Assembly: GCF_900169275.1 (NCBI RefSeq)
Contig: NZ_FXZC01000004.1
Span: 124,001 to 188,000 of the forward strand
Source: Brevibacterium casei CIP 102111
Lineage (GTDB): Bacteria > Actinomycetota > Actinomycetes > Actinomycetales > Brevibacteriaceae
DNA length: 64,000 bases
Direction: 5' to 3'
Part shown: positions 46,068 to 64,000 of the stretch, one piece after another
Layout: each line of letters begins with the position of its first letter
Position numbering within the stretch: position 1 is the first letter of the stretch
The notes under the pieces: model-generated
What the model saw: only the letters and a program-made list of their open reading frames with translations
Database searches by the model: none
Told to the model about the DNA's origin: nothing
Position numbers and translations under genes: made by a program

Positions 46068-46068
46068 C

Positions 46069-47223: not shown

Positions 47224-47274
47224 GGGGCGAGTTCACTCTCACGCCACGACGATTTCACTCGGACACCTGCGGGC

Positions 47275-47799: not shown

Positions 47800-48157
47800 G
47801 GTCTGGCTCTCGTCGGAAGAGAGCTTTCGCCGCCTCATCGAGGATGTCCGGAACGGGGCGATAGTAGGCCCAGCGCCCGCGCTGTTCGCGGGTGGCGAGC
47901 CCGGCGTCGACGAGGAGCTTCATGTGATGGGACACCGTCGGCTGGGACAGGCCGACGGGTTCGGTGAGGTCGCATGCGCACATCTCACCGGCGGGACTCG
48001 CAGTGATCATCGACAGGAGCTTCAGCCGTGTGGGGTCGCCGAGAGCCTTGAAGACCTTCGCGATCCGCTCGGCGTCGGCACCGTCGATCGGTGCGCACTC
48101 GGCGCAGCCGCGATCTGCTGGCGATTGGGTCTCGACATTAGCGGGCGTGGAGGACAT
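47789..48157 (-). CDS. arsR: Arsenic-responsive ArsR repressor
   Basis: A 122-residue ArsR/SmtB repressor. The DNA-binding helix region reads GEMCACDLTEPVGLSQPTVSHHMK. Cys60 and Cys62 form the CxC arsenite site, and two more cysteines (Cys18, Cys21) near the N-terminus may supply the third ligand. The ATG at 48157 is chosen; a GTG five codons upstream is possible. It overlaps the acetyltransferase gene and diverges from the flavoprotein gene across a region with the GACATATGTC palindrome. Confidence 0.87.
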   Translation of the reverse strand: MSSTPANVETQSPADRGCAECAPIDGADAERIAKVFKALGDPTRLKLLSMITASPAGEMCACDLTEPVGLSQPTVSHHMKLLVDAGLATREQRGRWAYYRPVPDILDEAAKALFRREPDHER

Positions 48158-48180
48158 GACCCCATTCTCCACAGCAGATT

Positions 48181-48202
48181 GACATATGTCGATATGTCGA
48201 TG
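48181..48202. promoter_or_regulatory. Candidate ArsR operator
   Basis: GACATATGTC (48181-48190) is a perfect 10-bp palindrome followed by a second ATATGTCGAT half (48192-48201). This AT-rich block sits between the divergent arsR and flavoprotein genes and fits an ArsR binding site. Confidence 0.6.
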
Positions 48203-48243
48203 AGGATCAAAACATCGAAGATCATCAATATGTGGAGATCGAA

Positions 48244-49515: not shown

Positions 49516-49611
49516 ACGGGCAGCCCGCAGACCGTTCGTCTGGGGACGGTCGGCAACGCCTCCCGCTGACGCGACGGCTGTCCGCGTCGATGAGCTGAGT
49601 CGTGGTCGTCC

Positions 49612-50016
49612 TCAGCCGATCAGATCGTCGACGAGGGCCGCGACGCGACTTCTGATGGCGTCGCGGATCGGGCGGACGGCACCGATGTCCTGTCCGGCGG
49701 GGTCGTCGAGCTGCCAGTCCTCGTAGCGCTTGCCGGGGAAGATCGGGCATGCGTCTCCGCAGCCCATCGTGATGACCACATCGGAGGAACGCACATCGTC
49801 GGCGGCGAGAACGGTCGGTTCTTCGGCCGTGATGTCGATGCCCTCTTCGGCCATGGCCTCGACGGCGACGGGATTGAGGTGATCGGCAGGCATCGAGCCG
49901 GCAGAGCGGACCTCGATGCGGCCATCGGCCAGCTCGCGCAGGTATCCGGCGGCCATCTGGGAGCGACCGGCATTGTGGACGCAGACGAACAGGACGGACG
50001 GCTTCTCTTCGCTCAT
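49612..50016 (-). CDS. arsC: Arsenate reductase ArsC (low-molecular-weight phosphatase fold)
   Basis: A 134-residue arsenate reductase. The phosphate loop is Cys12-VHNAG-Arg18-S, and Cys86 and Cys90 lie in MGCGDACP. Actinobacterial enzymes of this sequence type use mycothiol and mycoredoxin as reductant, but a thioredoxin-coupled mechanism is possible given the extra cysteines. It is convergent with the flavoprotein gene. No arsenite efflux pump (ArsB or Acr3) is present in the window. Confidence 0.9.
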   Translation of the reverse strand: MSEEKPSVLFVCVHNAGRSQMAAGYLRELADGRIEVRSAGSMPADHLNPVAVEAMAEEGIDITAEEPTVLAADDVRSSDVVITMGCGDACPIFPGKRYEDWQLDDPAGQDIGAVRPIRDAIRSRVAALVDDLIG

Positions 50017-50062
50017 GGTCGAATTCTCTCAGAGACGAGCGGAGTCGGCGTATCGTGGCCCC

Positions 50063-50476
50063 ATGGCCCACCCGCAGATGTTCGATGCCGATGATTCCGT
50101 GCTCGCGTGGTTCCGGACGGTCGCGCTGAGCTTCCCCGAAGCGCAGGAGAAGGTCTCGCACGGTCGCCCGGCGTTCTTCACGACGAAGGTCTTCGCCTAC
50201 TTCGGCGCCGCGGAGAAGCACGTCACCGGGGAGATCGAACAGCATCCCCACGCCGTCCTCCTCCTGCTCGATCCGCTCGACGCCGAGGTGATGCTCGAGC
50301 GCGAGGACACGTTCGTCCCCATGTACCTCGGCCCCACCGGCTGGATCGGTCTCGACCTCGCCGACGTCGCCGAGGACGAGCTGCGCGATCTCCTCGCCGA
50401 CTCCTATCGCAGCACAGCCCCGGCCAGGCTCGCCCGGCTCATCGACGATGTCGCCGCGGACGAGGCCGAGTCGTAA
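50063..50476 (+). CDS. MmcQ/YjbR family protein
   Basis: A 137-residue YjbR/MmcQ-like protein (double-wing CyaY-like fold). Seen features are VLAWFRTVALSFPEAQEKVSHGRPAFFTTKVFAYFG, and WIGLDLADVAEDELRDLLADSYR near the end. Its molecular function is unknown; some members have been proposed to bind DNA. It diverges from arsC across a 46-base gap, and no clear ribosome site is visible before the ATG. Confidence 0.82.
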   Translation: MAHPQMFDADDSVLAWFRTVALSFPEAQEKVSHGRPAFFTTKVFAYFGAAEKHVTGEIEQHPHAVLLLLDPLDAEVMLEREDTFVPMYLGPTGWIGLDLADVAEDELRDLLADSYRSTAPARLARLIDDVAADEAES

Positions 50477-50488
50477 CCCGAGGACGCG

Positions 50489-50527
50489 GTCGGCGTCGAG
50501 TCCGTCGGCGCGTCGGCGTCGAGTCCG
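50489..50527. repeat. Short tandem repeat downstream of yjbR-like gene
   Basis: GTCGGCGTCGAGTCCG occurs at 50489-50504 and again at 50512-50527 (period 23). The rest of this 141-base gap holds one copy of the CCGCCTCGGCG motif at 50591. Confidence 0.5.
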
Positions 50528-50617
50528 AGGACTGAGGCCCGACCGACAGCACCCCACGGCAAGCCGACTTGGCCGCACCCCTGGTCCTCACCGCCTCGGC
50601 GGTCTTAGGGTGGAGTC

Positions 50618-51451
50618 ATGACTGCGATTCCCACTCTCGAACTCAACGACGGACGTCCGATCCCCGAGATCGGACTCGGCACGTATGCGATGACCGGCCC
50701 TGAGGGCGTCGAATCGGTCGCCGCCGGCATCGAGAGCGGCTACCGCCTCCTTGACACGGCCGTCAACTACGAGAACGAAAGGGAAGTCGGCCAGGCGATC
50801 GCGGAGAGCCCCGTCGACCGCGCCGACCTCTTCGTCACGAGCAAGATCCCCGGCCGCCACCACGGATTCGATGACGCGATCGCGAGCACCGAGGAATCGC
50901 TCGCCCGCCTCGGCCTCGACTACCTCGACCTCCACCTCATCCACTGGCCCAACCCGAGCGTCGGGAAGTACGTCGACACGTGGCGCGGACTCATCGAACT
51001 GCGCGACCGCGGGCTCGTCAAGTCCATCGGCGTCTCGAACTTCACCGCCGAGATGCTCACCGAACTCATCGAGAAGACCGGAGTCACCCCCGCGGTCAAC
51101 CAGGTCGAACTCCACCCCTACTTCCCGCAGACCGCGCTCGTCGACTTCCACAAATCGATCGGCGTCCAGACCGAATCGTGGTCCCCGCTCTACCGCGACG
51201 GCGGCCTCTTCGCCGAAGACCCCATCACCGAGGCAGCCCGGGCCCACGGCGTCGAACCGGCCCAGGTCGTCCTCCGCTGGCACACCCAGATCGGCAGCAT
51301 CCCGATCCCGAAGTCGGCGAATCCCGAACGGCAGCGGCAGAACGCCGACATCTTCGGCTTCGACCTCACCCCCGCCGAGGTGGCCGCGATCTCCGGTCTC
51401 GAGCGCGGCCGGATGAAGGACCGGGATCCGCTCTCCCACGAGGAGATGTGA
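50618..51451 (+). CDS. Aldo/keto reductase
   Basis: A 277-residue NADPH-dependent aldo-keto reductase with the full catalytic tetrad: Asp46 and Tyr51 (GYRLLDTAVNYENE), Lys76 (VTSKIPG) and His109 (DLHLIHWPNP). The cofactor region IPIPKSANPERQRQN near the C-terminus is canonical. It resembles 2,5-diketo-D-gluconate-reductase-type enzymes with broad carbonyl substrates. It stands alone and ends at a strong bidirectional hairpin. Confidence 0.9.
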   Translation: MTAIPTLELNDGRPIPEIGLGTYAMTGPEGVESVAAGIESGYRLLDTAVNYENEREVGQAIAESPVDRADLFVTSKIPGRHHGFDDAIASTEESLARLGLDYLDLHLIHWPNPSVGKYVDTWRGLIELRDRGLVKSIGVSNFTAEMLTELIEKTGVTPAVNQVELHPYFPQTALVDFHKSIGVQTESWSPLYRDGGLFAEDPITEAARAHGVEPAQVVLRWHTQIGSIPIPKSANPERQRQNADIFGFDLTPAEVAAISGLERGRMKDRDPLSHEEM

Positions 51452-51554: not shown

Positions 51555-53072
51555 TCAGTGCGACACGGTCTCCCGGCGGCGGGCGTCCGCTCTCCGAGTC
51601 CGGAGGTTCCGGACCACCGCTCCGATGAGCGGGTAGGCGAGTGCGAAGAGTGCGGCCAGGGTGAGGATGAGCGAAAGCGGCTGCTGGAACATGATGAAGA
51701 GGTTCCCGTTGCCCAGCGCCGAGGTCTGCACGAGGTACTTCTCGAGCAGCGGACCGAGGACGAGTCCGAGGACGAACGGGGCGGCCGGGAAGTCGAAGCG
51801 CTTCATGAAGAAGCCGAGGAGCCCGGAGAAGAACACCACCCAGAGGGTGAACATGTTGTTGCCCAGGGCGAAGGCGCCGACGAAGCTCATCATGAGCACA
51901 ATCGGGTAGAGGAAGACGTAGGGGATCCGCAGGATCTGCGCGAACACCGGTGCCAGCGGCAGGTTGAGCACGAGCAGGATGAGGTTGCCGAAGAAGAAGC
52001 TCACGAGCAGACCCCAGACGATGTCGGGCTCCTGCTGGAAGAGCAGCGGTCCCGGCTGCAGTCCGAAGATGACGAAGGCACCGAGGAGGACGGCCGTCGT
52101 CCCGCTGCCGGGGATGCCGAGCGCGAGCGTCGGGATGAAGCTCGCGTTCGCGGCCGCGTTGTTCGCCGCCTCGGGTGCGGCGACCGCCTCCGGCGCGCCC
52201 TTGCCGATGAGGTGCTTGAACCGGCTCACCTGCTTCTCGACACCGTAGGCGAGGAACGTCGCGAGCGTCGCCCCGGCACCGGGCAGGACCCCGACGGTGA
52301 AGCCGAGACCGGTCCCGCGCACCGTCGACGGTGCCGCACGTCGCAGCTCCTCCTTCGTCACGAGCAGATCCCGGAAACGGGCGCGGATGGGCTTCTCCCC
52401 GCCTCGGCGGATCTGGTGGAGGACCTCACCGACGGCGAAGATGCCGATCATCACCGCGACGAAGTCGAGCCCCGAGAGGAGGTTGACGCTGCCGAAGGTG
52501 AAGCGGGCCGTGGAGAAGCCGGAGGCGACCCCGACCATCGACACGAGGAGCCCGGCGGCGGCCATGGTGATGCCGCGGAGGATGTTCTCCCCGGCGAACG
52601 AGACGATCGTCGCCATCCCGAGGAGGATGATCGCGAGGTTCTCGGCGGGGCCGAAGTTGAGTGCGAACCGTGCGATCGGCTGGGCCAAGGCGATGAGGGC
52701 GATGAGTGAGACGATGGCGGCGAAGAACGACGCGAGGGCGGAGATCGCGAGCGCCGCGCCGGCTCTGCCCTTCCGCGCCATCTGATAGCCGTCGATGGTG
52801 AGCACCACACTCGAGGAGTCCCCGGGTGTGGAGATGAGGATCGAGCTGATCGAGGACCCGTACTGGGATCCGTAGTAGATGCCGGCGAGCATGATGAGCG
52901 CGGTGACGGGATCGAAGGCGAGGGTGACCGGCAGGAGGATCGCGACACCCGTCGTCGATCCCAGCCCCGGCAGCAGGCCGATGACGGTGCCGAGCAGGAC
53001 GCCGACGAAGCACCAGAGCAGGTTCTCGGGGGTGACTGCGGTCTCCAGCCCGATCATGAGGTTGTCGAACAT
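51555..53072 (-). CDS. tctA: Tripartite tricarboxylate transporter large subunit TctA (second system)
   Basis: A 505-residue TctA permease with about 12 helices: GTVIGLLPGLGSTTGVAILLP, YYGSQYGSSISSILISTPGDSSSV, GVLPGAGATLATFLAY and APEAANNAAANASFIPTLALGIPGSGTTA. It differs clearly from the TctA at 42206, so the two transporters have different substrates. It is the last gene of a minus-strand unit tctC-pdxA-tctB-tctA, nine bases after tctB. Confidence 0.92.
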   Translation of the reverse strand: MFDNLMIGLETAVTPENLLWCFVGVLLGTVIGLLPGLGSTTGVAILLPVTLAFDPVTALIMLAGIYYGSQYGSSISSILISTPGDSSSVVLTIDGYQMARKGRAGAALAISALASFFAAIVSLIALIALAQPIARFALNFGPAENLAIILLGMATIVSFAGENILRGITMAAAGLLVSMVGVASGFSTARFTFGSVNLLSGLDFVAVMIGIFAVGEVLHQIRRGGEKPIRARFRDLLVTKEELRRAAPSTVRGTGLGFTVGVLPGAGATLATFLAYGVEKQVSRFKHLIGKGAPEAVAAPEAANNAAANASFIPTLALGIPGSGTTAVLLGAFVIFGLQPGPLLFQQEPDIVWGLLVSFFFGNLILLVLNLPLAPVFAQILRIPYVFLYPIVLMMSFVGAFALGNNMFTLWVVFFSGLLGFFMKRFDFPAAPFVLGLVLGPLLEKYLVQTSALGNGNLFIMFQQPLSLILTLAALFALAYPLIGAVVRNLRTRRADARRRETVSH

Positions 53073-53081
53073 GGGAACTCC

Positions 53082-53684
53082 TCAGACGAGGCCGAGCATC
53101 CCGGTCGGCAGGGGGACCGAGAGGACGAGGCCGAAGACGATGTAGACGAAGACTGCCGCACCGATCGTCGCCAGGGCGGAGACCCACCACTTCTGCTTCT
53201 CCACGACGAGGAGGAGGAAGAGGATGGCCCCCGAGAGCGCGATGATGAGCCCGAGGACGGGCACGAGCGCGAGCGCAATGCCGAAGGTGAGGAAGATGAC
53301 GAAGGGCGCGCGGTTGCGCTGCCTCTCCGTGCGGCCGAAGGTGTCTACGGCCTCCCCGTCGGCGGAGACGGCATCGGAGGCGGCGTCGATCGACTCCGCG
53401 GCGGTGGCCTCGATGTCCTCGACCGCTGACATGATCCGTCCGCCCGAGGTGCCGACACTGGCGAAGAAGAGACGGAAGATCTCCGCCACCGAGGCGAGGA
53501 AGATGAACCCACCGGTGAGGAAGGGAAGCATGCCCGGACCGACCTGGCCGCCCTCGACGGTGAGCCCGTACCCGAGCCCCATGATCGCGGCCACCGCGCC
53601 GACGATGCCGAGGATCGCCGTGCCGATGACGTCGGAGACCTCGGGTCGGTTCCGCGGAGGGGTCCGCTCCGCCACCGTGCTCAT
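53082..53684 (-). CDS. tctB: Tripartite tricarboxylate transporter small subunit TctB (second system)
   Basis: A 200-residue TctB subunit with four predicted helices. It is recognised by GTAILGIVGAVAAIMGLGYGL, then GGQVGPGMLPFLTGGFIFLASVAEI, and by a long acidic loop between the helix pairs (about residues 85-120). The start overlaps the pdxA-like stop (ATGA), tying its translation to that enzyme. Confidence 0.85.
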   Translation of the reverse strand: MSTVAERTPPRNRPEVSDVIGTAILGIVGAVAAIMGLGYGLTVEGGQVGPGMLPFLTGGFIFLASVAEIFRLFFASVGTSGGRIMSAVEDIEATAAESIDAASDAVSADGEAVDTFGRTERQRNRAPFVIFLTFGIALALVPVLGLIIALSGAILFLLLVVEKQKWWVSALATIGAAVFVYIVFGLVLSVPLPTGMLGLV

Positions 53685-54712
53685 CGGACGCCCACCTCCG
53701 CGGGGGCCGCACTCTCCGGTGCGGCGGTCCTCGCCCGCTCCGCCGCGCGGTGGGCGGACATGCGCACCGCGAGATCGAAGGCATGGCTGCTCGGGCTCAG
53801 CTCCGCCGTGCGCGTGCCGACGATCCCGTGCGCGGTGCCGTGGGCGGGGGTGGCGATGGGGATCGGGATGCCGCCGTGGACCGTGACGCCCTGGTCGAAG
53901 CCGAGCAGCTTCATCGCGATCTGCCCCTGATCGTGGTACATCGTCACGACACCGTCGAAGTCGCCGCCGGCGGCCCGGGAGAAGAGAGTGTCACAGGGGA
54001 AGGGGCCTGCGACGTCGATCCCGCGGGAGCGGGCGAGGGCGATCGCCGGGGCGATGTCGTCGATCTCCTCGCGCCCGAACTTCCCGCCCTCACCCGCGTG
54101 CGGGTTGAGCGCGCACACCGCCAGTCGCGGGGTCGGCGTCCTCGTCTCCCGGACGACGCGGTCGAGGAGCTCGATCGTCTCGAGCACCCTGCCGGCGCGG
54201 ATGCCCGCAGCGACCTCGGAGATCGGAATGTGCGAGGTCACCCGGGCGGTGACGAGCGCATCGATGAAATTGAGCTCGGAGGTGAAGCCCCGGTAGCCGA
54301 GCCGCTCGGCGAACCACCGCAGCTCGTCCTCCTGAGTCATGCCCGCCTGCGACATCGCCCCTTTGTTGAGGGGGAAGAAGAGGACTCCGTCGGCGTCCTC
54401 GGCCGCGCACAGGTCGAGCGCGGCGCCGAGGTCGATCAGCGCCCGCCTGCCCGCGTCGGCACTCACCTCGCCGACGGGGATGGCGGGACCGTCGTAGGCG
54501 GTGCCGACGAACTCGATCTCCTCGAGGTCGGGCAGGTCGACGCCGGCGGTGTCGGCGAACGAGCGCAGCTCGTCCGGCGTCGCGGTGACGGTGAGGTCGG
54601 CGCGCGCCCGATTGCCCTCGTCAACGAGGATGCGGGCGAGGAGTTCGGGGCCGACCCCGGAGAGGTCGCCGGGGACGAGGACGATGCGCGGCTTGGGCGT
54701 CGAGGCGGTCAC
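53681..54712 (-). CDS. PdxA family dehydrogenase (PdxA2-like)
   Basis: A 343-residue member of the 4-hydroxythreonine-4-phosphate dehydrogenase family. Metal-site motifs are intact: the His in TSHIPISEV, LNPHAGEGGKFGREE, and MYHDQGQIAMKLLGF. PdxA2 paralogues oxidise and decarboxylate four-carbon sugar-acid phosphates; others (TphB) act on terephthalate dihydrodiol. Because the gene lies between transporter subunit genes (GTG overlapping the tctC stop, TGA overlapping tctB), a catabolic role is far more likely than vitamin B6 synthesis. No sugar-acid kinase is seen beside it. Confidence 0.85.
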   Translation of the reverse strand: MTASTPKPRIVLVPGDLSGVGPELLARILVDEGNRARADLTVTATPDELRSFADTAGVDLPDLEEIEFVGTAYDGPAIPVGEVSADAGRRALIDLGAALDLCAAEDADGVLFFPLNKGAMSQAGMTQEDELRWFAERLGYRGFTSELNFIDALVTARVTSHIPISEVAAGIRAGRVLETIELLDRVVRETRTPTPRLAVCALNPHAGEGGKFGREEIDDIAPAIALARSRGIDVAGPFPCDTLFSRAAGGDFDGVVTMYHDQGQIAMKLLGFDQGVTVHGGIPIPIATPAHGTAHGIVGTRTAELSPSSHAFDLAVRMSAHRAAERARTAAPESAAPAEVGVR

Positions 54713-55680
54713 TTTCCGATCGCCTCCCGCAGCTCCTTGTCGTTCTCGGCGAGGTACTTCGAGAAGTCGTCGCCGTAGGCCGTGTTCGGCTGCATCATGT
54801 TGTCCTCGATGTACTTCGTGTAGGCATCGGTCTCGGCGAACGCCTTCGCCTGGTCGATCCAGTACTGCTTCGCCTCGTCGGGGATGTTGCCGGGTGCGAT
54901 GACGCCGCGGAACTGGGCGAAGGCGACATCGATGCCCTGTTCCTTCGCGGTCGGGATGTCCTTGAGCTCGGGGTACTCGTAGCGTTCCTCCGAGGCGGCG
55001 CACAGGGGCTTGAGATCGCCCGATTCGAGCTGACCGAGGACCTCACCCGGGTTGACCGAGATCGCCTCGACCTGTCCGCCGAGGGCTGCGGTGATGACCT
55101 CGGACCCCGATTCGAAGGGCACGCGATCGAACTTCGCCCCCGTGGCCTTCTCCATGAGCGTGAAGGTGATGTTGTCGAGTCCCGTCGCTCCGGAGATCGC
55201 GACGACGGTGCGCTCCTTCTTCGCCTTCTCGACGAGGTCGGAGCAGGTATTGAGCGGCGAATCGGCCTTGGCGACGATGAGCGTGTAGTCGTCGCCGAGC
55301 TTCATGATCGGGGTGAAGCTCTCATACGTGAATTCGACGTCCTGGGTCGCCGGCAGGGCGAGCATCGCCGTCTCGGTGGCGAGCAGGTAGTTCGGATCGC
55401 CGCTGCGGCCGAGGAACTCGGAGTAGCCGACGGCCCCGGAGCCGCCTTCGATGTTCTGCACGGTGATCGTCTTGCCGGTCGTCTCCTCGAGTCCGGAGGC
55501 CGTCGCGCGGCCCGCGATGTCGCTGCCGCCGCCGGCGGCGAAGGGGACGATCATGGTGACGTTGCCCTTGGGTTCGAAGCCGCCGTCGGACGAGGCGGTC
55601 GACCCCTGCCCGCAGGCGCTCAGCCCGAGGGCGAGGACGCCGGCTGCGGCCGTGGCGGTGAGCAGTCTCTTCAGGTGCAT
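54709..55680 (-). CDS. tctC: Tripartite tricarboxylate transporter binding protein TctC (second system)
   Basis: A 323-residue solute-binding lipoprotein: basic start, hydrophobic helix, lipobox LSAC, then VTMIVPFAAGGGSDIAGRATASGLEE, VQNIEGGSGAVGYSEFLGR and the C-terminal QFRGVIAPGNIPDEAKQYW segment. The ATG at 55680 is chosen because AAGGAG is six bases upstream, whereas another ATG two codons earlier abuts it. It is the first gene of the unit and is followed directly by the overlapping pdxA-like gene. Confidence 0.9.
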   Translation of the reverse strand: MHLKRLLTATAAAGVLALGLSACGQGSTASSDGGFEPKGNVTMIVPFAAGGGSDIAGRATASGLEETTGKTITVQNIEGGSGAVGYSEFLGRSGDPNYLLATETAMLALPATQDVEFTYESFTPIMKLGDDYTLIVAKADSPLNTCSDLVEKAKKERTVVAISGATGLDNITFTLMEKATGAKFDRVPFESGSEVITAALGGQVEAISVNPGEVLGQLESGDLKPLCAASEERYEYPELKDIPTAKEQGIDVAFAQFRGVIAPGNIPDEAKQYWIDQAKAFAETDAYTKYIEDNMMQPNTAYGDDFSKYLAENDKELREAIGK

Positions 55681-55742
55681 TTCCATCTCCTTTGACAGAA
55701 GTGTGAGGTGGTGTCGGTGTGGGACGCGGGGGTCCGCGGCGG

Positions 55743-56471
55743 TCACGTCGCCGGGGGCAGGGCGGAGCGCACCTCCTCGAGCCAGCGGTCCGATTCGGGC
55801 GTGGCCCCGTCGAGGCGGTCGACGACGTCGACGAGGAACGAGAGGTTCCCGTGGTCGTCGAACTCCGCTTCGATGGCCTCGGGGTCGCCGGTGAGGATGA
55901 CGTCGAGCATCCGGGCGTGGCGCGCGACGTTGCCGTCGAGGTCCTCGATCTCCCGCCGGGCCTGGTTGTTCAGTGCCATGCACATCTGCAGCTGCATCGC
56001 CATCGCCCGGTACGTCGATTCGATGCGGCCGTGACCGGCCAGCCCGACCACGGCGAAGTGGAATTCGAACCCGGCGGAGACCATGTCCCCTTCGGTCCCG
56101 GACTCGGCGATCCTCTCCATCTCCCGCAGGGCGGCCCGGCATCGTTCGACCCGCTCGGGGGCGAGGTCGGGCAGGGCCAGACGCAGCGCCATCCGTTCGA
56201 GATCGCGGCGCAGAGTGGCGATCTCGAAGACGTCGTGCTGGGTGATCGACATGATCCTCACCCCCTTGCGCGGGATGTGCTCGACGAGACCGGTGTGCGC
56301 GAGCTCCTTGAGCGCCTCGCGCAGAGGGGGACGGGAGATCCCGAGCTCTGCGCACAGGCGCTCCTCGACGAGCCGCTCGCCGGGGAGATAGTCGCCGGCG
56401 AGGATCGTGCGCTCGAGAGCGTGCCTCGCCTGCATCGCGAGACTCGGCTGAGCCGGGAGGAGAGTGGACAC
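55743..56471 (-). CDS. GntR family regulator (FCD domain)
   Basis: A 242-residue FCD-type GntR regulator: LVEERLCAELGISRPPLREALKELAHTGLVEHIPRKGVRI in the winged helix, then an FCD domain with FEFHFAVVGLAG and RHARMLDVIL. The GTG at 56471 gives the longest consistent N-terminus. It lies 62 bases upstream of tctC on the same strand and diverges from a CoA transferase, so it could control both. A TGTATACA palindrome is just upstream. Confidence 0.88.
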   Translation of the reverse strand: MSTLLPAQPSLAMQARHALERTILAGDYLPGERLVEERLCAELGISRPPLREALKELAHTGLVEHIPRKGVRIMSITQHDVFEIATLRRDLERMALRLALPDLAPERVERCRAALREMERIAESGTEGDMVSAGFEFHFAVVGLAGHGRIESTYRAMAMQLQMCMALNNQARREIEDLDGNVARHARMLDVILTGDPEAIEAEFDDHGNLSFLVDVVDRLDGATPESDRWLEEVRSALPPAT

Positions 56472-56489: not shown

Positions 56490-56499
56490 TTGTATACAG
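56490..56499. promoter_or_regulatory. Candidate GntR operator
   Basis: TTGTATACAG contains the perfect palindrome TGTATACA (56491-56498), 19 bases before the GntR start and in the divergent region with the CoA transferase. It closely resembles the TTGTATACAA site at 23134. Confidence 0.55.
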
Positions 56500-56622
56500 T
56501 AGTGTGAAGACTGTAACCCGCATCACACTGCAATTTCAATGGGTCGGCTCGGTCTGTCGTCGAAGATCGACGACGTCGAGTGAGCTGTTCCTAGAGGATC
56601 GATGAAGATCAGAGGAGTTCTC

Positions 56623-57837
56623 ATGAGCGCAGACACACCTCCCGACGAGTCCGCGGGACCGCGCGCGCCGGGCGCTCTCAGCGGCGTCACGGTGCTCGAA
56701 CTCGGCGTGTTCATGGCCGGACCGTTCGCGACGATGCAGCTCGCCGACCTCGGCGCCCGGGTGATCAAGATCGAGAATCCCGATGGCGGCGACCAGACGC
56801 GCAGCACCGGGCCGTACGTCGACGGCGAGAGCGTGCCCCATATGCTCCTCAATCGGAACAAGGAGTCCGTCACCCTCGACCTCAAGGACTCGATCGGCAG
56901 GGAGGCGTTCATGCGCCTGGCTGAGACCGCCGACGTCGTCGTCGAGAACATGAGGCCCGGCGTCATGGCCCGTCTGGGAACCTCGTACGAGAGCGTGCGC
57001 GAGCGCAATCCCGGGATCATCTACGCCTCAGCCTCCGGGTGGGGCCAGGACGGTCCTCTCGCGGATCTCGCGGGACTCGACATCATGGCGCAGGCGCGCA
57101 GCGGGCTGATGAGCATCACCGGCTTCCCCGATTCGCCCCCGGCCAAGGTCGGGGTCCCGATCTGCGACCTCACCTCGGCGCTCTACGTCGCTCTCGCCGT
57201 CACCGCCGCCCTCGTCGAACGGGACCGTTCGGGGCAGGGGCAGTACATCGACGTCTCCCTCTTCGAGAGCGGCGTCTCCTACGCCGTGTGGGAGGCGGCC
57301 GCCTACTTCACCGAGGGCAGGGTCGGACGTCCGAACGGATCCGCTCACCAGAATCAGGCCCCCTACCAGGCCGTGCACTCCGCCGACGGGTTCGTCACGG
57401 TCGGGGCGAACACGCCGCGCAACTGGGAGCGGTTCTGTCGGGCGCTCGGACTCGACGACCTCCTCGAGGACCCGCGGTTCACCCGGTCCTATGACCGGCT
57501 CACGCACAGGGAGGCGCTCATCGCCCTCATCGAGGACAAGACCGGGCAGCTGACGACCGACGAGGTCGTCGGACTGCTCAACGAGGCCGGAGTCCCGTGC
57601 GCACCGATCAGCGACTACGGGGAGGTCTTCACCGACGACCATCTCCTCGCGCGCGACTTCTACTGGGACTCCGCGCACCCGGTCGCCGGCACGGTCCGGC
57701 AGATCGGCTCACCGATGCGGATGTCGCGCACGCCGGCGCGACGCGGCCCGGCCGGGCCCTCGCTCGGCGCCGACAACGCAGTGCTCGACGACCTCGGGTT
57801 CACCGCGGAGGAACTCGCCGCACTCAAAGGGCGCTGA
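56623..57837 (+). CDS. Family III CoA transferase (CaiB/BaiF)
   Basis: The third family III CoA transferase in the window, 404 residues. It has GVTVLELGVFMAGPFATMQLADLGARVIKIE at the start, the catalytic Asp182 in VGVPICDLTSA, and GQGQYIDVSLFESGVSYAVWEAAAYF. AGAGGAG is six bases before the ATG. It precedes a crotonase gene and diverges from the GntR/tctC-pdxA unit, suggesting that a CoA ester is made and then hydrated or isomerised. Confidence 0.87.
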   Translation: MSADTPPDESAGPRAPGALSGVTVLELGVFMAGPFATMQLADLGARVIKIENPDGGDQTRSTGPYVDGESVPHMLLNRNKESVTLDLKDSIGREAFMRLAETADVVVENMRPGVMARLGTSYESVRERNPGIIYASASGWGQDGPLADLAGLDIMAQARSGLMSITGFPDSPPAKVGVPICDLTSALYVALAVTAALVERDRSGQGQYIDVSLFESGVSYAVWEAAAYFTEGRVGRPNGSAHQNQAPYQAVHSADGFVTVGANTPRNWERFCRALGLDDLLEDPRFTRSYDRLTHREALIALIEDKTGQLTTDEVVGLLNEAGVPCAPISDYGEVFTDDHLLARDFYWDSAHPVAGTVRQIGSPMRMSRTPARRGPAGPSLGADNAVLDDLGFTAEELAALKGR

Positions 57838-57947: not shown

Positions 57948-58739
57948 ATGAGCGACGAGCACGCAGCAGTCGGGACGGAGGACCTCCTCGTCGAGCGGGA
58001 CGACGGCGTCCTCACCGTGACCTTCAACCGGCCCGAGGCGAGGAATGCGATGACCTGGGAGATGTACCAGGGCCTCGCCGAGGCGTGCGACGCCGTCGAT
58101 GCCGACCTCGCGGTGCGCGTCATGGTCCTCCGCGGGGCGGGCGGACGAGCCTTCGTCGCCGGCACCGACATCGCCCAGTTCACCGAGTTCGACGGCCCCG
58201 CCGGCGTCGCCTACGAACGCCGGATCTCCGAGGTGCTCGCCCGTCTCCGGGCGGTCGACGTCCCCGTCATCGCGGCCATCGACGGGTACTGCGTGGGCGG
58301 GGGTCTGGGGATCGCCGCGTGCGCAGACCTGCGTCTGGCCTCCCCGGGGTCGCGCTTCGGCGTGCCGATCGCGCGGACGCTCGGCAACTGCCTGTCGGGG
58401 GACACCCTCGGTCTCCTCATCGCCCTCCTCGGACGCGGCCGCGTCGTCGACATGCTCCTGCGCGCCCGCTTCATCGACGCCGACGAAGCCCTCACCGCGG
58501 GCTTCCTCGGCACCGTCACCGACGACGTCGACGCGACGGCGGCGGAGTGGGCGGCGACACTCAAGGGCCATGCCCCGCTGACGATGTGGTCGGTCAAGGA
58601 GATCGTGCGACGGCTCTCCGACCTCGGCGGGGGCATCGACGATGCCGATGTCGTCGAGCGGATCTACGGGTCGGAGGACTTCCACGAGGCGGTGCGGGCA
58701 TTCATCGCCAAGGAGGACTACGAGTGGACGGGACGCTGA
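57948..58739 (+). CDS. Enoyl-CoA hydratase/isomerase family protein
   Basis: A 263-residue crotonase-fold protein with oxyanion segments GRAFVAGTDIAQF and DGYCVGGGLGIAACADLRLA. The position of the catalytic Glu in hydratases (PE) reads FGVPIARTLGNCLS, so this is probably not a standard enoyl-CoA hydratase. Dehydratase-, carnityl- or decarboxylase-like activity is possible. AAGGAG precedes the ATG. It ends six bases from the convergent dehydrogenase gene. Confidence 0.83.
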   Translation: MSDEHAAVGTEDLLVERDDGVLTVTFNRPEARNAMTWEMYQGLAEACDAVDADLAVRVMVLRGAGGRAFVAGTDIAQFTEFDGPAGVAYERRISEVLARLRAVDVPVIAAIDGYCVGGGLGIAACADLRLASPGSRFGVPIARTLGNCLSGDTLGLLIALLGRGRVVDMLLRARFIDADEALTAGFLGTVTDDVDATAAEWAATLKGHAPLTMWSVKEIVRRLSDLGGGIDDADVVERIYGSEDFHEAVRAFIAKEDYEWTGR

Positions 58740-58745: not shown

Positions 58746-59627
58746 TCACGCATCGTAGGTGCGGATGACCTGGGAGTCGTCACGGCGGGCGAGCCCGAGT
58801 TCGGCTGCGGCGGCGAACCGCTGCGCGGCGACGGGGAGCAGGGCGAGGTCGATGTCGAGGTCGGCGGCCAGATCGGCGACGAGGGTGGTGTCCTTGACGA
58901 AGATTCCCACAGCGCTCGCCACCGGGGCGTCGAGTCCGGCGAGCATGCGCGGCCCCCGGTCGGCGAGCATCCACGACTGTCCGGCGCCTGCGGTCATCGC
59001 CGCGAGCACGGACTCCTCGTCGAGGCCGAGCCGTCCGGCTAAGGACAGGGCCTCGGCGGCGGCGACGATGTGGACCGAGCAGAGCAGCTGGTTGACCGCC
59101 TTGTACGCCTGGCCGTCGCCGAGGCGCTCACCGCAGTCGATGATCGTCCCGAGGGCCTGAAGCACGGGCCGGCGGGAGTCGAGGACCTCGGACGGACCGG
59201 AGGCGAGCATGCGCAGAGTCCCTGCCTGCACGCCGGCGATGCCGCCGGTGACGGGGACGTCGAGGGTGCTGATCCCGCGCTCCGCCGCACGTGCTCCGGC
59301 CGCTCTCACCGCTTCGGGGCCGACCGTGCTCATGACGATGAGCACCGCTCCGGGCGCCATGAGGTCGAGGAGCCCGGGAACGCCCGCATCGGGGTCCCCG
59401 TTGAGGGCGGCGTCGAGCTGCTCGCCGGTGGCGACCATGACGATGACCGTGCCCGCGGACGCCGCGGACCGGGGTTCCGCCTCGGTGGGCAGGCCGGCCG
59501 CAGCCGCGCGCCCCCGCGGTTCGGGGAACAGGTCGACGCCCGTGACCGCGGCTCCGGAGGCGTGGAGGCGCAGCGCCATCGGCAGCCCGATCGCGCCGAG
59601 CCCGAGGAAGGTGATCTGGTCGGTCAT
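58746..59627 (-). CDS. 3-hydroxyisobutyrate/L-threonate-type dehydrogenase
   Basis: A 293-residue beta-hydroxyacid dehydrogenase: NAD motif FLGLGAIGLPMALRL, substrate loop DVPVTGGIAGVQAGTL (residues 123-138), catalytic Lys176 and Asn179 in GQAYKAVNQLL. LtnD, which oxidises L-threonate or D-erythronate, belongs to this family. The gene's place at the end of an operon of four-carbon-sugar-type enzymes makes an acid-sugar substrate plausible, though hydroxyisobutyrate or tartronate semialdehyde cannot be excluded. Confidence 0.85.
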   Translation of the reverse strand: MTDQITFLGLGAIGLPMALRLHASGAAVTGVDLFPEPRGRAAAAGLPTEAEPRSAASAGTVIVMVATGEQLDAALNGDPDAGVPGLLDLMAPGAVLIVMSTVGPEAVRAAGARAAERGISTLDVPVTGGIAGVQAGTLRMLASGPSEVLDSRRPVLQALGTIIDCGERLGDGQAYKAVNQLLCSVHIVAAAEALSLAGRLGLDEESVLAAMTAGAGQSWMLADRGPRMLAGLDAPVASAVGIFVKDTTLVADLAADLDIDLALLPVAAQRFAAAAELGLARRDDSQVIRTYDA

Positions 59628-59642
59628 CGATCCTCCTGCGGA

Positions 59643-60431
59643 TCAGTGGAAGTAGAGTCCGCCGTTGATGCTCAGCGTCTGCCCGGTGATGTGGCCGGCA
59701 CCTTCGCTGATGAGGAAGGCGACGGTGGCGGAGACGTCCTCGGGGACGGAGATCCGGCCCAGCGGCGTCGCCGATCCCATCGCCTCGCGTCTCTCGTCGT
59801 CGAGCGGCCCGCCCATGATGTCGGTGTCGACGGGGCCCGGGGAGATCGAGTTCGCGGTCACCCCGAAGGGGCCGAGTTCGAGGGCGACACCGCGCATGAG
59901 GCCGACGATGCCGGCCTTGGCGGCCGCGTACGCGGTCTTCGAGTACGTTCCGCCGCCCTTCTGCGCCGTGACCGAGGAGAGACCGACGATGCGCCCCACT
60001 CCGTTGGCGGCCATGATCCGCCCGAACGCCTGCGTGACGAGGTGGGTGGCGGTGAGATTGTTCGCGATGACCCGGGTCCACTCCGCCTCGGAGATCTCGA
60101 AGTACGTCACCGAGGAGGAGACGCCGGCGAAGTTCGCGAGCGCGACGATCTGCGGAAGTCCCGACTCGAAGGCGGCTGCCGCCTCGGCGATGGCCGTGGA
60201 GTCGGTGACGTCGACGCCCGCACCGAGGGCCTGGATCCCGTGGGTGGCGGTGAGTTCCTCGGCGAGAGTGTGGGCCTCATCTGCGCGGCGGGCGATGAGT
60301 CCGAGGTTCCAGCCGTGCTCGGCGAGCCGGTGCGCGGTGTGCCGACCGATGCCGTGGGCGCTGCCGACCCCGGTGAGCACGGCGGTGCGCGAGTCGGGGA
60401 ACGCGGGGCCGGGTGTCGTCGGTGCGCTCAT
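59643..60431 (-). CDS. Short-chain dehydrogenase/reductase
   Basis: A 262-residue SDR: cofactor motif TGVGSAHGIGRHTAHRLAEHG, NFAGVSSS in place of NNAG, catalytic Ser in VGLSSVTAQKGGG and Tyr/Lys in YAAAKAGIVGLMRG, and the closing GQTLSINGGLYFH. Its start overlaps the TIM-barrel gene (ATGA). In polyol operons such enzymes interconvert sugar alcohols and ketoses. Substrate is inferred from context only. Confidence 0.86.
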   Translation of the reverse strand: MSAPTTPGPAFPDSRTAVLTGVGSAHGIGRHTAHRLAEHGWNLGLIARRADEAHTLAEELTATHGIQALGAGVDVTDSTAIAEAAAAFESGLPQIVALANFAGVSSSVTYFEISEAEWTRVIANNLTATHLVTQAFGRIMAANGVGRIVGLSSVTAQKGGGTYSKTAYAAAKAGIVGLMRGVALELGPFGVTANSISPGPVDTDIMGGPLDDERREAMGSATPLGRISVPEDVSATVAFLISEGAGHITGQTLSINGGLYFH

Positions 60432-61369
60432 GCTGCGGAGTCCTTCCGGGGCGAGGGGCCCTGGAGCAGCCCGAGGAGATACGTGCGGTTCTCCGCGCAC
60501 ACGCCGAGGCTGTCGCCGCCGTACTGCTCCATGAGGAACGGGCCGGAGAACCCGAGATCAAGGGCGCGGGCGACCATCGCGCGGTAGTCGATGAGGCCGT
60601 CGCGCAGGGTCGTCGGGTGGGTCGTCACCCACGAGCCGTCGCCGGCTTCGTCGCGCTGGTAGTTCTTCATATGCCAGTAGTTCGCGAAGGGCAGGGTGGC
60701 CTCGTGCATCTCCCGCCAGTCCTCGATCGGGCGGTGGAGGCGGATGAGGTTGCCGATGTCGGGGTTGAGCCCGACCGTGTCGAGCCCGATCTCCTCGATG
60801 AGGCGCACGGCGGAGTCGGCGGTGCCGAGGTAGGTGTCCTCGTACATCTCCAACGACATCGGCAGACCCACCTCGGCGGCATGGCGTCCGAGCTCCCGGA
60901 GGCGGCGGACGGCGAGCGCCCGGACCTCGGGGTCCGGTGGATCCTGCCAGCCCGGGGCGGTCCAGAACCACAGGGCCCGGCGCTGCGCCTCGGTGAAGGG
61001 CTGGTGGAGCCCGGTGGAGAAGACCCGGCAGCCGAGTTCGGCGGCGGCGTCGATGGTGCGGTGGGCGTAGTCGAGGTTGTCCTCGCCGTGGTCGGGGTCG
61101 ATGACCGAGCGCCGTTGGACGTGGACGGCGGAGAAGTCGATCCCCGCCGAGGCGGCCGCCCGGGCGAGCTCGGACCGACCGTCCGCGGTGAGGTCGGCCG
61201 GCCGGATGTGGCTGTCGGCGATCTCGAGGGCGGTGAAGCCGAGGCCCGCCACGGTTGCGAGCATGTCCGACCACTCCTCGGGGCCTGCCTCGTGGAGGGC
61301 GGTGCCGTCACGGTCGACGGTAGGGAAGCCGTGCATGCAGCAGGCGATCATCGGCTCGGTGGGGATCAT
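60428..61369 (-). CDS. Sugar phosphate isomerase/epimerase (xylose-isomerase-like TIM barrel)
   Basis: A 313-residue AP-endonuclease-2/xylose-isomerase-like barrel. Likely metal ligands are Glu in MSLEMYED, Asp in GLNPDIGNLIR, His in YWHMKNYQ and Glu in FLMEQYGGD. Relatives isomerise or epimerise free or phosphorylated ketoses, including erythrulose phosphate (LerI type) and hydroxypyruvate. Its overlap with the SDR gene and position among RpiB and isomerase genes support a role in ketose isomerisation. Confidence 0.82.
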   Translation of the reverse strand: MIPTEPMIACCMHGFPTVDRDGTALHEAGPEEWSDMLATVAGLGFTALEIADSHIRPADLTADGRSELARAAASAGIDFSAVHVQRRSVIDPDHGEDNLDYAHRTIDAAAELGCRVFSTGLHQPFTEAQRRALWFWTAPGWQDPPDPEVRALAVRRLRELGRHAAEVGLPMSLEMYEDTYLGTADSAVRLIEEIGLDTVGLNPDIGNLIRLHRPIEDWREMHEATLPFANYWHMKNYQRDEAGDGSWVTTHPTTLRDGLIDYRAMVARALDLGFSGPFLMEQYGGDSLGVCAENRTYLLGLLQGPSPRKDSAA

Positions 61370-61388
61370 GGGTCCTCGCAGTTCACGA

Positions 61389-62144
61389 TCAGGTGGTCGG
61401 TGGCTGGGGGTCTTCGACGAGGGCGCGGTGGGCGACCATGCGGACGTGGTGGCGCATCGCCGCCTCGGGGGCGGTCGGATCCGGGGAGGCGAAGGCCTCG
61501 AGGATGGCCCGGTGCTCGCTCACCGCTTCGTCGACGTCGGTGATGCCGTGGGGCAGGGCCTGCCGGAGGCGGTGGACCTGCGCGCCGAGGTCGTCGGACA
61601 TCCGGACCAGGTAGCGGTTGTCGCAGTGGTCGAAGATGACGCCGTGGAAGGCGCGGTCGCGCGCGTAGTAGTCCTGGGCGGCGGCGACGAGCCGGTGCTG
61701 GGCCTCCTCGTCGTCGGCCGCTGCGCTCTCCGCGGCCGCCGTCGCCTCCCGGACGCGGGCACCGGCCCGCTCGTGTTCGGCGTGGGCGGCTCGCAGGTCC
61801 TCGAGGAAGGCGTCGTCGGCGGGGGTGGCGAGGCGCGTGGCGGTGGTCTCGAGGGTCTCCCGGGCGACGAAGAGCTCTTCGAGCTGCCCGCGGTCGAGTG
61901 GGGGAGCGACCCGGTAGCCGCGCAGCGCCTCCCTGACGACCAGGCCCGTGCGTTCGAGGTCGACGAGGGCTTCGCGGACCGGGGTCGGGGAGACGTCGAG
62001 GCGACGCGCGAGACCGTCGATGGACACGCGTTCGCCGGGAGAGATCTCGCCGGTGAGGAGGATCTCGAGGATGTGGTCGTAGACGAGGTCGCGCAGACCT
62101 CGCCGTTCGATGTCGGGGCGGGGGACGGCGGGGAGCGAATTCAT
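61389..62144 (-). CDS. GntR family regulator (FCD domain)
   Basis: A 251-residue FCD-type GntR regulator. The winged helix spans about residues 18-75 (SIDGLARRLDVSPTPVREALVDLERTGLV). The FCD domain includes DRAFHGVIFDHCDN and EHRAILEAF, with an Ala/Glu-rich insert near residues 130-150. Its ATG overlaps the stop of the triose-phosphate-isomerase-like gene, so it is made as part of the operon it probably controls. Confidence 0.88.
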   Translation of the reverse strand: MNSLPAVPRPDIERRGLRDLVYDHILEILLTGEISPGERVSIDGLARRLDVSPTPVREALVDLERTGLVVREALRGYRVAPPLDRGQLEELFVARETLETTATRLATPADDAFLEDLRAAHAEHERAGARVREATAAAESAAADDEEAQHRLVAAAQDYYARDRAFHGVIFDHCDNRYLVRMSDDLGAQVHRLRQALPHGITDVDEAVSEHRAILEAFASPDPTAPEAAMRHHVRMVAHRALVEDPQPPTT

Positions 62145-62992
62145 GGTGACAGCTTAATGACGTCGGCGACCTCATCGAGGATCTCCCGCACGGAATCGGT
62201 CTCGTGGGCGAACCGGCCGAGGAAGAGTCCGTCGACGGCGGGGCCGAGCCGGGTGAGGAGTCCCGGGCGGGCGCTGCCGCCGTAGATGAGGCGGAAGTCG
62301 AGGGCGGGGAAGTGGGTGCGGGTGCGTGAGCGCACGAGCCTGCACACCTCGGTGATGTGCTCGGGGTCGGCGGGAGCAGGTGCCCCGATCGCCCACACCG
62401 GTTCGTAGGCGAGGACGACGGACATCGGGCGGGGAAGCTCAGCGCTCGCCGGGGGCAGGGCGGAGCGGATCTGGACCATCACCTCGGCGGCGGCCTGCTC
62501 GGGGGAGACCGAGGATTCTTCGCCGACGCAGAGGACGGGGACGAGTCCGTGGCGCAGCGCCGTGGCGGTCTTGGCGCTGACGACGTCGTCGGTCTCGTGG
62601 AAGTGCCGACGGCGCTCCGCGTGCCCGACCTCGGCGAACCGGCAGCCGAGTTCGGCGAGCACCGAGGCCGAGACCTCACCCGTCCACGCCCCGGAGTCGG
62701 CCGCGGCGACGTCCTGGGCACCGATGAGCAGGGGGCCGCCGAGCGCGACGCATTCGGGGATCGAGGGGAACTGGGGGAGGAGGAAGAGTCCGGCGGCGCC
62801 CGAGGTCACGGCGGGATGCGTGCGGCCGAGCTCGCTCACCTCGGCGGCCCACTCCAGGGTCCGGGCGTGCGAGAAGTACATCTTCAGGCTCGTCCCGATG
62901 ATCCGGTCGGGCAGCGTCGCAGCGGTGGAGTCGCCTGCGGGGCCGGTGAGCGCTCCTGCGGCGCGGGTGGCAGCGGTGGTCGCGGCGGCCAT
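62141..62992 (-). CDS. Triose-phosphate isomerase family protein (EryH/TipH-like)
   Basis: A 283-residue TIM homologue. Lys37 in GTSLKMY, His124 in EVGHAERRRHF and the catalytic Glu197 in AYEPVWAIG are kept. The residue two before the Lys, which is Asn in housekeeping enzymes, is Ser35. Together with a 27-residue N-terminal extension and its place beside rpiB, this suggests a catabolic tetrulose-phosphate isomerase (EryH/TipH type) and not the glycolytic enzyme. Confidence 0.83.
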   Translation of the reverse strand: MAAATTAATRAAGALTGPAGDSTAATLPDRIIGTSLKMYFSHARTLEWAAEVSELGRTHPAVTSGAAGLFLLPQFPSIPECVALGGPLLIGAQDVAAADSGAWTGEVSASVLAELGCRFAEVGHAERRRHFHETDDVVSAKTATALRHGLVPVLCVGEESSVSPEQAAAEVMVQIRSALPPASAELPRPMSVVLAYEPVWAIGAPAPADPEHITEVCRLVRSRTRTHFPALDFRLIYGGSARPGLLTRLGPAVDGLFLGRFAHETDSVREILDEVADVIKLSP

Positions 62993-62995
62993 CGC

Positions 62996-63451
62996 TCAGC
63001 GGGACTCGTATTCGCTGATCTGGGCGACCTTGTCGTTCGAGGCGCTCGTCGGGTCGAAGGTGTAGCCGAGCCATTCGCGGGCGAGCCGGCGGGCGAGTTC
63101 GAGGCCGATGACGCGTTGGCCCATGCAGAGGACCTGGGCGTCGTTGGAGAGGACGGAGCGTTCGACGCTGAAGGAGTCGTGCGCCGTGGCCGCCCGGATG
63201 CCCTTGACCTTGTTCGCCGAGATCGCCACCCCGAGGCCGGTGCCGCAGATGAGGATCGCCCTGTCCGCGTCGCCGCGGGCGACGATCTCAGCGGCGGTCG
63301 TCGCGATCGACGGGTAGAAGGTGTGGGAGTCGGCGTCGACGCCGACGTCGGTGACCGAGGAGATCCGCTCGTCGGCGGCGAGGTCGGCCTTGATGGCCTC
63401 CTTGTAGTCGAAGCCGGCGTCGTCGGATCCGATGACGAGTCGCAGTGTCAT
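62996..63451 (-). CDS. RpiB/LacAB family sugar-phosphate isomerase (EryI-like)
   Basis: A 151-residue RpiB-family isomerase with catalytic Cys69 in [16 protein letters not shown] and His91 in TAHDSF. The usual SDHAG motif reads SDDAG (Asp11 for His). RpiB homologues in erythritol/threitol operons (EryI) convert 3-tetrulose-4-phosphate to erythrose-4-phosphate. The start overlaps the kinase stop and the next gene follows after three bases. Confidence 0.86.
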
Positions 63452-64000
63452 GATCGGGCTGCCTTCCGTTCGCGGTGTGAGGGTGGGGTGGGAGCCGGTT
63501 CGAGACCGGTGCGGGCGGTGAGTTCGTCTGCCACCGCCGAGGCGATGCGGGCGAGCGAGATCGCGCCGGGGTCGGGGGTGCCCACGCTCTTCTCGCCATG
63601 TGCCCGGGCGCGACCGCGGCGGGCGGCGAGGTCGGCGGTGCCCTCGGCCCCGCGTGTCGCCGCTTCGGCGGCGCGCTCCGCCGCGGAGGCACAGACCGTG
63701 AGCGCTCCCTCGTCGGGGTCGGTGGCGTCGCCGACGGCACGGGTGAACTCCGCGGCGAGCGGGGCGAGGGCGTCGAGGAGGGTCTTGTCGCCGACGTCGA
63801 CGCCTCCGAAGGCCCGCACCTCGGCGACGGTGGCCTCGAGTGCCCGGGAGATGTCGGATGGAGTCGGGGCATCGGGGCCGTCGAAGCCGGTGGCGAGGCT
63901 TGCGAGGATGCGCCCCCAGATCGCGCCGGACGTGCCGCCGCCGACGTCGGCCCAGGCCTCCCCGGCGGTGCGGAGGATCACCGCCGGTCCCTGGTCGTGG
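63448..64000 (-). CDS. Dihydroxyacetone/erythrulose-type kinase, DhaL domain (5' part outside window)
   Basis: The C-terminal 183 or so codons of a Dak-family kinase. The ATP-binding DhaL domain shows the [10 protein letters not shown] loop, [14 protein letters not shown], and [18 protein letters not shown] with its nucleotide-loop Gly/Ser. The frame is open to the window edge, so the start is upstream, and the protein is probably a fused DhaK-DhaL, ATP-dependent kinase. In actinobacterial polyol operons such kinases (DerK/LerK) phosphorylate erythrulose. The stop overlaps the RpiB start (ATGA). Confidence 0.85.

Follow-up and report, generated by a model that had tools for sequence, protein, structure and literature searches.

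In a 64,000-nucleotide stretch of the Brevibacterium casei CIP 102111 genome (contig NZ_FXZC01000004.1, positions 124,001 to 188,000; hereafter the window), a seven-gene operon and the PdxA-TctABC operon that adjoins it (51555-56471) make up a cluster that probably removes one carbon from a five-carbon (C5) sugar acid and feeds a four-carbon (C4) sugar to central metabolism. The last steps of this route resemble known pathways; the first steps and the exact substrate look undescribed. Parts of the cluster recur in many soil and plant bacteria of the Actinomycetota and Alphaproteobacteria, and no description of it was found in the literature consulted (open-licence papers).

The seven genes lie on the minus strand between 58746 and about 65295, in a genome of 3.84 Mb. 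From the promoter end they encode a Dak-type kinase, an RpiB homologue, a TIM homologue, a GntR/FCD regulator, a xylose-isomerase-like barrel (here XI), a short-chain dehydrogenase (SDR) and an LtnD-like dehydrogenase. Open reading frame spacing and Pfam matches bear out the original prediction, made from the letters alone, that these genes are coupled and belong to the families named. The kinase and RpiB genes overlap by 4 bp, as do those of TIM and GntR; gaps of 3, 19 and 15 bp separate RpiB from TIM, GntR from XI and SDR from LtnD; and, with the ATG at 60431 taken as the SDR start, XI and SDR overlap by 4 bp (the longest reading frame would make this 73 bp). The kinase gene is truncated at the window edge and continues for about 1.3 kb on the same contig, to a start at the window equivalent of 65295 (GTG) or 65328 (TTG). 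The same prediction read the operon as a catabolic route for erythrulose, threitol, erythritol or threonate; its C4 lower half, from erythrulose to D-erythrose 4-phosphate, is well supported, and its polyol or threonate upper half is not. To it can now be added the adjoining PdxA-TctABC operon, which co-occurs with XI and the kinase in other bacteria, and a shared palindrome.

Within the order, 297 genomes were searched for XI, and 77 gave a match (E up to 1e-60). We read the neighbourhoods of the window, of 40 loci chosen from these 77 genomes, of the best 80 of at least 561 confirmed matches in named genomes, and of seven alphaproteobacterial regions (two of them from S. meliloti) drawn from 95 plasmid records with an XI match. 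The sample thus comprises 128 loci with 124 distinct XI, in stretches that reach to roughly 10 kb from XI unless a contig end comes first; locus proteins that had stops, were too short or were identical were excluded from the residue and linkage tallies below. A Dak kinase is present in 105 of the 128 stretches, an RpiB in 83, a TIM in 85 and all three in 69. The neighbourhood comparison suggested with the original prediction found the order DAK-RpiB-TIM-GntR-XI again in other Brevibacterium, Microbacterium and Agrococcus loci, and its recurrence across genera indicates that the arrangement is more than chance.

Among 117 distinct actinobacterial XI, 90 are accompanied by a 3HCDH-type dehydrogenase only, 14 by PdxA and TctC only, one by both (L118) and 12 by neither, the last group including two loci with PdxA minus a TctC match (L151, L159) and two Brevibacterium stretches that stop short of the PdxA operon (L042/L104, L102). 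All seven alphaproteobacterial loci combine XI with PdxA, TctC, TctA and DAK, none has 3HCDH, and S. meliloti, Pararhizobium and Shinella share the compact order PdxA-TctC-TctB-TctA-XI-DAK. Because 3HCDH and PdxA alternate near XI, the two dehydrogenases look interchangeable. The two 3HCDH-type proteins that were checked reach the cut-off of none of the acyl-CoA dehydrogenase models listed. An MFS transporter occurs in 54 of the 80 named loci and, in XI-3HCDH loci, resembles D-galactonate transporters at scores below that model's cut-off. In L071, L072 and L073, which have XI, 3HCDH, DAK, RpiB and TIM, a GH39 glycosidase and parts of a sugar ABC importer precede the cluster genes, hinting at release of a sugar from a polymer ahead of its oxidation.

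Sequence comparison makes it very likely that the kinase, TIM and RpiB homologues are C4-type enzymes constituting a lower pathway of a known kind from erythrulose to D-erythrose 4-phosphate. A second TIM (39% identical), a second RpiB (34%) and a second Dak kinase (37%) are encoded elsewhere in the genome, so those of the operon are extra copies; the other kinase is at C19:575364-577022, where the match contains one in-frame TGA. As yardsticks we drew loci from a plasmid collection. Those of Pantoea At-9b and Erwinia E602 carry a kinase, a TIM, an XI-family protein and a PF16896 oxidoreductase, and we take them to be D-apionate loci; the others are Rhizobium loci annotated with OiaX, a Rhizobium locus read as an erythritol operon, and an Arthrobacter plasmid locus (L185) with a sugar ABC importer, alcohol dehydrogenases, DAK, RpiB and TIM, read as a polyol locus. 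The TIM tree places the window protein with the Pantoea, Erwinia and Arthrobacter TIMs in a single 23-row clade (support 100/100), apart from the TpiA rows and from rhizobial EryH/LerI; a Pasteurella "tpiA" yardstick fell on a long branch on the EryH/LerI side, away from the other TpiA rows. In the kinase tree 35 of the 40 rows form a clade with 100/100 support that leaves out five rows of the DhaK type; within it, a 100/99 sub-clade unites the window kinase with those of Pantoea, Erwinia and Arthrobacter. The RpiB clade of the window (100/97) joins DerI/EryI at 98/91, apart from the RpiB yardsticks. These trees contain few yardsticks, those of kinase and RpiB are flagged for long branches, and the RpiB bootstrap is unsettled; the L071 TIM (187 aa) and the L079 kinase (15 aa as extended) were left out beforehand.

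Residue signatures agree with the trees. Where TpiA has an Asn, two positions ahead of its catalytic Lys, all 81 locus TIMs with a letter at that site have Ser (83 distinct proteins, two gapped, with the group of the four tree outliers counted in), and none of the 81 distinct locus RpiBs has the His10 or the His99 of E. coli RpiB. The EryH/LerI and EryI/DerI yardsticks carry the same signatures; the genome's own other TIM keeps the Asn, and its other RpiB both His. As a matter of chemistry, erythrulose 4-phosphate is unable to form a furanose ring, and a ring-opening His would therefore be dispensable. The substrate-binding His is retained in all 97 distinct locus kinases. The original prediction that the trio acts on a C4 keto-sugar phosphate is thus supported: the refuting outcome named with it, a grouping with glycerol/dihydroxyacetone or pentose enzymes, did not appear in the trees, where all three proteins group with erythrulose-phosphate enzymes and away from DhaK, TpiA and RpiB.

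Further clues come from the PdxA paralogue. All 27 XI-linked copies, among which some genomes were fetched twice, keep residues H166, H211, H266, D247, D267 and K274 of E. coli PdxA, presumably the metal and catalytic residues. In the same 27, H136, T137, N283 and R292 are replaced; two other PdxA rows (one gene, fetched twice) retain H136, T137 and R292, with Ser at N283. As the replaced residues would face the substrate phosphate, the acid used is most likely an unphosphorylated one, to judge from the sequence. Against the TIGR00557 cut-off of 290.35, the window PdxA (216.3) and the S. meliloti copy (255.0) both fall below; the genome's second PdxA, on contig C13, passes at 300.6 and has the GHTE and RTS motifs. 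PdxA2 paralogues are described as very hard to annotate in PMC9997740.

XI itself has as its nearest solved structure 5tnv, an uncharacterised protein of M. smegmatis, which our structure model (pLDDT 83.9) matches at a TM score of 0.86; the next of the 50 matches listed are mostly ketose 3-epimerases and UlaE, at query TM scores of 0.57-0.71. In an alignment of 20 members E174, D204 and E281 never vary and H233 is conserved almost throughout, residues that, we assume, resemble the metal ligands of the xylose-isomerase-like fold. No characterised member of the subfamily was found. XI belongs to the same Pfam family as the OiaC-type protein and has no significant sequence similarity to OiaC, to OtnI or to a fragment of EryC; an EryC-, OiaC- or OtnI-like identity thus finds no support in sequence similarity, for EryC with that fragment as yardstick. 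(The likely eryC of the Rhizobium ruizarguesonis erythritol locus, L095:6100-7250, is frame-broken, hence the fragment.) Decarboxylation by XI would fit the place that an XI-family protein holds in apionate-type loci; XI may instead be an epimerase or a 2-oxo/3-oxo isomerase, with the net reaction unchanged.

These observations can be assembled into a pathway. TctABC would import an unphosphorylated sugar acid, most likely a C5 acid with the L configuration at C4, and the PdxA paralogue, or a 3HCDH-type dehydrogenase in other bacteria, would oxidise its C3 hydroxyl. XI would then remove CO2, or isomerise the keto acid or ketose, the net product being erythrulose. Phosphorylation by the Dak kinase would give L-erythrulose 1-phosphate, which the TIM homologue would convert to D-erythrulose 4-phosphate and the RpiB homologue to D-erythrose 4-phosphate, for entry into the pentose phosphate pathway. 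The SDR and the LtnD-like protein may contribute accessory steps. The L configuration is proposed because a TIM homologue is required only if L-erythrulose 1-phosphate arises. C3 oxidation followed by loss of CO2 turns any L-pentonate into L-erythrulose. To the scheme as a whole, lower pathway plus an upper pathway from an unphosphorylated C5 sugar acid, we give an even chance of being right. According to PMC11066805, ascorbate gives rise to L-lyxonate and L-xylonate. Several of the genera carrying the cluster are plant-associated, and it is tempting to guess that ascorbate-derived C5 acids such as these are the substrate. In its fullest form the proposal is of an undescribed linear C5 sugar acid route in Actinomycetota and Alphaproteobacteria, with C3 oxidation by a PdxA that lacks the phosphate site (or by 3HCDH), decarboxylation to erythrulose by a new XI subfamily and entry as erythrose 4-phosphate, possibly serving L-lyxonate and L-xylonate from ascorbate breakdown; we advance it tentatively, as falling somewhat short of an even chance.

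The cluster genes also appear to share a regulatory element. The sequence ATCCTATAGGAT sits upstream of the kinase gene, and a scan of 2.34 Mb of actinobacterial loci, some genomes being present twice, found the palindrome WTCCTATAGGAW with at most one mismatch at 168 sites in 121 loci. Nearly all of these (166, in 97 loci) precede a cluster gene by at most 250 bp: XI in 84 cases, DAK in 59, GntR in 8, CaiB in 7, 3HCDH in 3, PdxA and MFS in 2 each and TctC in 1. With a near-identical pattern, 127 loci yielded 132 sites, as against 2 in shuffled sequence. Of 19 controls with a permuted core, 17 never occurred upstream of a cluster gene; the exceptions were CTCTATAGAG (2 of 2 sites) and TCATCGATGA (14 of 35), the latter excess being due, perhaps, to the ATGA that it contains, a start-codon context. 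The window genome has three places: an exact one before the kinase, one with a single mismatch at 56588-56599, and C14:550613, which precedes a gene without evident link to the cluster. Nine other genomes were scanned for exact copies, and 15 places were found in eight of them, 11 within the locus (seven genomes) and four elsewhere. In seven of the nine, exact WTCCTATAGGAW copies are confined to the locus, so the genes marked in most scanned genomes are those of the locus. We infer that the linked GntR protein binds this palindrome ahead of the transcription units. Two further motifs were observed: TTCCTA(C/G)AGGAT before the CoA-transferase gene in 7 of the 10 loci with checkable upstream sequence, and a palindrome, TGTATACA, at 56491-56499 just upstream of the second GntR gene, present also in L043, L114 and L115 and likely the operator of that second regulator.

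Several points weigh against the proposed pathway. No activity report for any cluster protein was found in the literature searched, and the roles given to the signature residues of TIM and RpiB, ring opening by His99 included, and to the phosphate-side residues of PdxA (H136, T137, N283, R292) are assumed ones. The reaction of XI is assigned from position and fold, as similarity to OiaC, OtnI and the EryC fragment is not significant. The window RpiB fails NF051858, the Rhizobium-type DerI model (146.8 bits, cut-off 240), and passes the ribose-5-phosphate isomerase models TIGR02133 (203.6, cut-off 168.2) and NF004051 (148.2, cut-off 135). Of 24 locus TIMs, 20 fall inside the window clade; those of L059, L076, L078 and L079 lie outside, on the TpiA/EryH side. 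TIM and RpiB are absent from all seven alphaproteobacterial stretches, and dihydroxyacetone may therefore be the product there. Some XI loci (L049, L071-L073) have components of a sugar ABC-type importer and no acid transporters. The Fisher test for mutual exclusion of 3HCDH and PdxA+TctC (p = 2.8e-10) ignores phylogeny. Lastly, Glycomyces (G304) has four exact palindromes outside its locus and none inside, one genome of the nine-genome scan (G303) has no exact copy, and the palindrome is absent from the six alphaproteobacterial loci scanned.

One could envision that the cluster acts on a C4 acid, threonate or erythronate, converted to 3-oxo-tetronate and decarboxylated to dihydroxyacetone for the Dak kinase and the TIM homologue. 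Both families would suit, OtnK-like genes occur in 14 and LtnD-like genes in 21 of the 80 named loci, and the alphaproteobacterial stretches without TIM or RpiB conform to this reading, which we nevertheless regard as unlikely: it leaves RpiB unexplained, by tree and by signature the kinase, TIM and RpiB side with C4 enzymes, and the genome has another TIM. It also has a separate tetronate-type locus, on contig C13 (L193:6282-10242), where a GntP-like transporter, a DUF1537 kinase and the ordinary PdxA are adjacent, as might be expected of a D-threonate/D-erythronate locus. The genome's only match to an OtnK-type DUF1537 kinase is on this contig, and none is in the cluster. The D-threonate/D-erythronate route with a DUF1537 kinase and PdxA2, reportedly the work of Zhang et al. 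(2016), likewise uses a PdxA-family dehydrogenase in acid-sugar catabolism; it differs from the cluster in that kinase, and the window PdxA is without the GHTE and RTS motifs. As for the earlier suggestion of threonate as substrate, the LtnD-like protein scores 211.1 bits on NF043037 against a cut-off of 350, a shortfall on which its identification as a genuine threonate dehydrogenase was rejected.

A tetritol or tetrulose route, from erythritol, threitol or erythrulose, with the SDR as polyol dehydrogenase and XI as erythrulose 3-epimerase, appears a shade more improbable. The erythritol/threitol pathway of the Mycolicibacterium smegmatis type is said to have been worked out by Huang et al. 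(2015) and is summarised in PMC12780249, and the Arthrobacter locus L185, which we group with it, has the DAK-RpiB-TIM trio in identical order; unlike the window, it has a sugar ABC importer and alcohol dehydrogenases and no XI, PdxA or TctABC. The original prediction of erythritol or threitol as substrate fares poorly in this comparison: sugar ABC importer and zinc alcohol dehydrogenase, both present in L185, are missing from the two operons, to which the search was confined. The resemblance of the XI fold to ketose 3-epimerases would suit such a route, as would the match of the SDR to the GolD/DthD model; this match, at 149 bits, is well under the cut-off of 286. PdxA and the carboxylate-type transporter would be left unexplained by it, and in alphaproteobacterial loci no SDR of this kind stands beside XI-DAK. 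The Brucella/Rhizobium erythritol operon shares with the cluster TIM-like and RpiB-like isomerases (EryH, EryI) with matching residue signatures; it differs in having an FGGY kinase and a polyol-phosphate dehydrogenase, and its TIM lies elsewhere in the tree. The FGGY annotation (L095) also contradicts the statement, made with the original prediction, that Brucella uses a Dak kinase for erythritol; in PMC12542623 the Brucella erythritol kinase is a 520-aa protein whose BLAST matches are xylulose and glycerol kinases. On the tetrulose side, Curtobacterium citreum, whose genus carries the module, was isolated on L-erythrulose, according to PMC12780249.

D-Apionate degradation through the xylose-isomerase-family decarboxylase OiaC, with LerK, LerI and DerI, was reportedly described by Carter et al. 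(2018), and such loci, like ours, unite an XI-family protein with a Dak kinase and with isomerases resembling TIM and RpiB, the window proteins being 49.9% (kinase), 49.8% (TIM) and 45.6% (RpiB) identical to those of Pantoea. Least probable of the three, nonetheless, is a branched, apionate-like C5 acid, with XI acting like OiaC on 3-oxo-isoapionate from an unrelated enzyme: XI is of another subfamily, XI loci use a PdxA or 3HCDH dehydrogenase and other transporters, the tertiary C3 of apionate blocks PdxA-type or 3HCDH-type oxidation there, and the PF16896 oxidoisomerase has no match in the genome (the Pantoea plasmid control was positive), so that the classical apionate pathway was rejected for this genome. 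Microbacterium hydrocarbonoxydans (G301) does carry a PF16896 gene, on a contig other than that of its XI locus. All in all, a C5 acid yielding erythrulose is the likely substrate, as opposed to a C4 compound taken up directly.

The coordinates of all features are collected in Table 1. Between the two operons lie genes for a CoA-transferase and an enoyl-CoA hydratase, an arrangement seen only in Brevibacterium among the loci viewed. Beyond TctA, at 45291-51451, are an HpcH/HpaI-type aldolase gene and, by eye, open reading frames resembling a zinc alcohol dehydrogenase and an aldo-keto reductase; no evidence tying these genes to the cluster was seen here.

Table 1. Features of the two operons and of the region between them (window coordinates)
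Feature	Position	Strand	Basis
Dak-type kinase (DhaK-DhaL fusion), predicted erythrulose kinase	63448..64000, on to ~65295	-	Pfam Dak1+Dak2, tree
RpiB homologue, predicted D-erythrulose-4-phosphate isomerase	62996..63451	-	LacAB_rpiB, tree, His10/His99 absent
TIM homologue, predicted L-erythrulose-1-phosphate isomerase	62141..62992	-	Pfam TIM, tree, Asn->Ser signature
GntR/FCD regulator, presumed palindrome reader	61389..62144	-	Pfam GntR+FCD, linkage; binding inferred
XI, predicted 3-oxo-acid decarboxylase or isomerase/epimerase	60428..61369	-	Pfam AP_endonuc_2
SDR dehydrogenase, putative accessory step	59643..60431	-	Pfam short-chain dehydrogenase
LtnD-like (HIBADH family) dehydrogenase, putative accessory step	58746..59627	-	NAD_binding_2+NAD_binding_11
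Enoyl-CoA hydratase family protein, between both operons	57948..58739	+	
Family III CoA-transferase (CaiB)	56623..57837 (longest reading frame from 56602)	+	
Near-palindrome TTCCTAGAGGAT, one mismatch to WTCCTATAGGAW, between divergent operons	56588..56599	.	
Second GntR/FCD regulator	55743..56471	-	
TctC, binding protein of tripartite tricarboxylate-type transporter	54709..55686	-	PF03401; start codon from sequence
PdxA paralogue without presumed phosphate-side residues, predicted C3 dehydrogenase of unphosphorylated sugar acid	53681..54712	-	PF04166
TctB	53082..53684	-	PF07331
TctA	51555..53072	-	PF01970

These findings bear on annotation as well as on physiology. Current annotation treats PdxA homologues as vitamin B6 enzymes; with a group that lacks the presumed phosphate site residing in apparent sugar-acid operons, many such annotations would be wrong. 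The XI subfamily, with 5tnv as its one, uncharacterised structure, would gain a function. The locus-bound palindrome offers a simple inducer test for the substrate. According to PMC12780249, the transporters and kinases with which soil bacteria use L-erythrulose are still enigmatic, and Curtobacterium citreum is among the isolates. The cluster provides candidate genes for this ability, the module being found in Curtobacterium genomes other than that of C. citreum.

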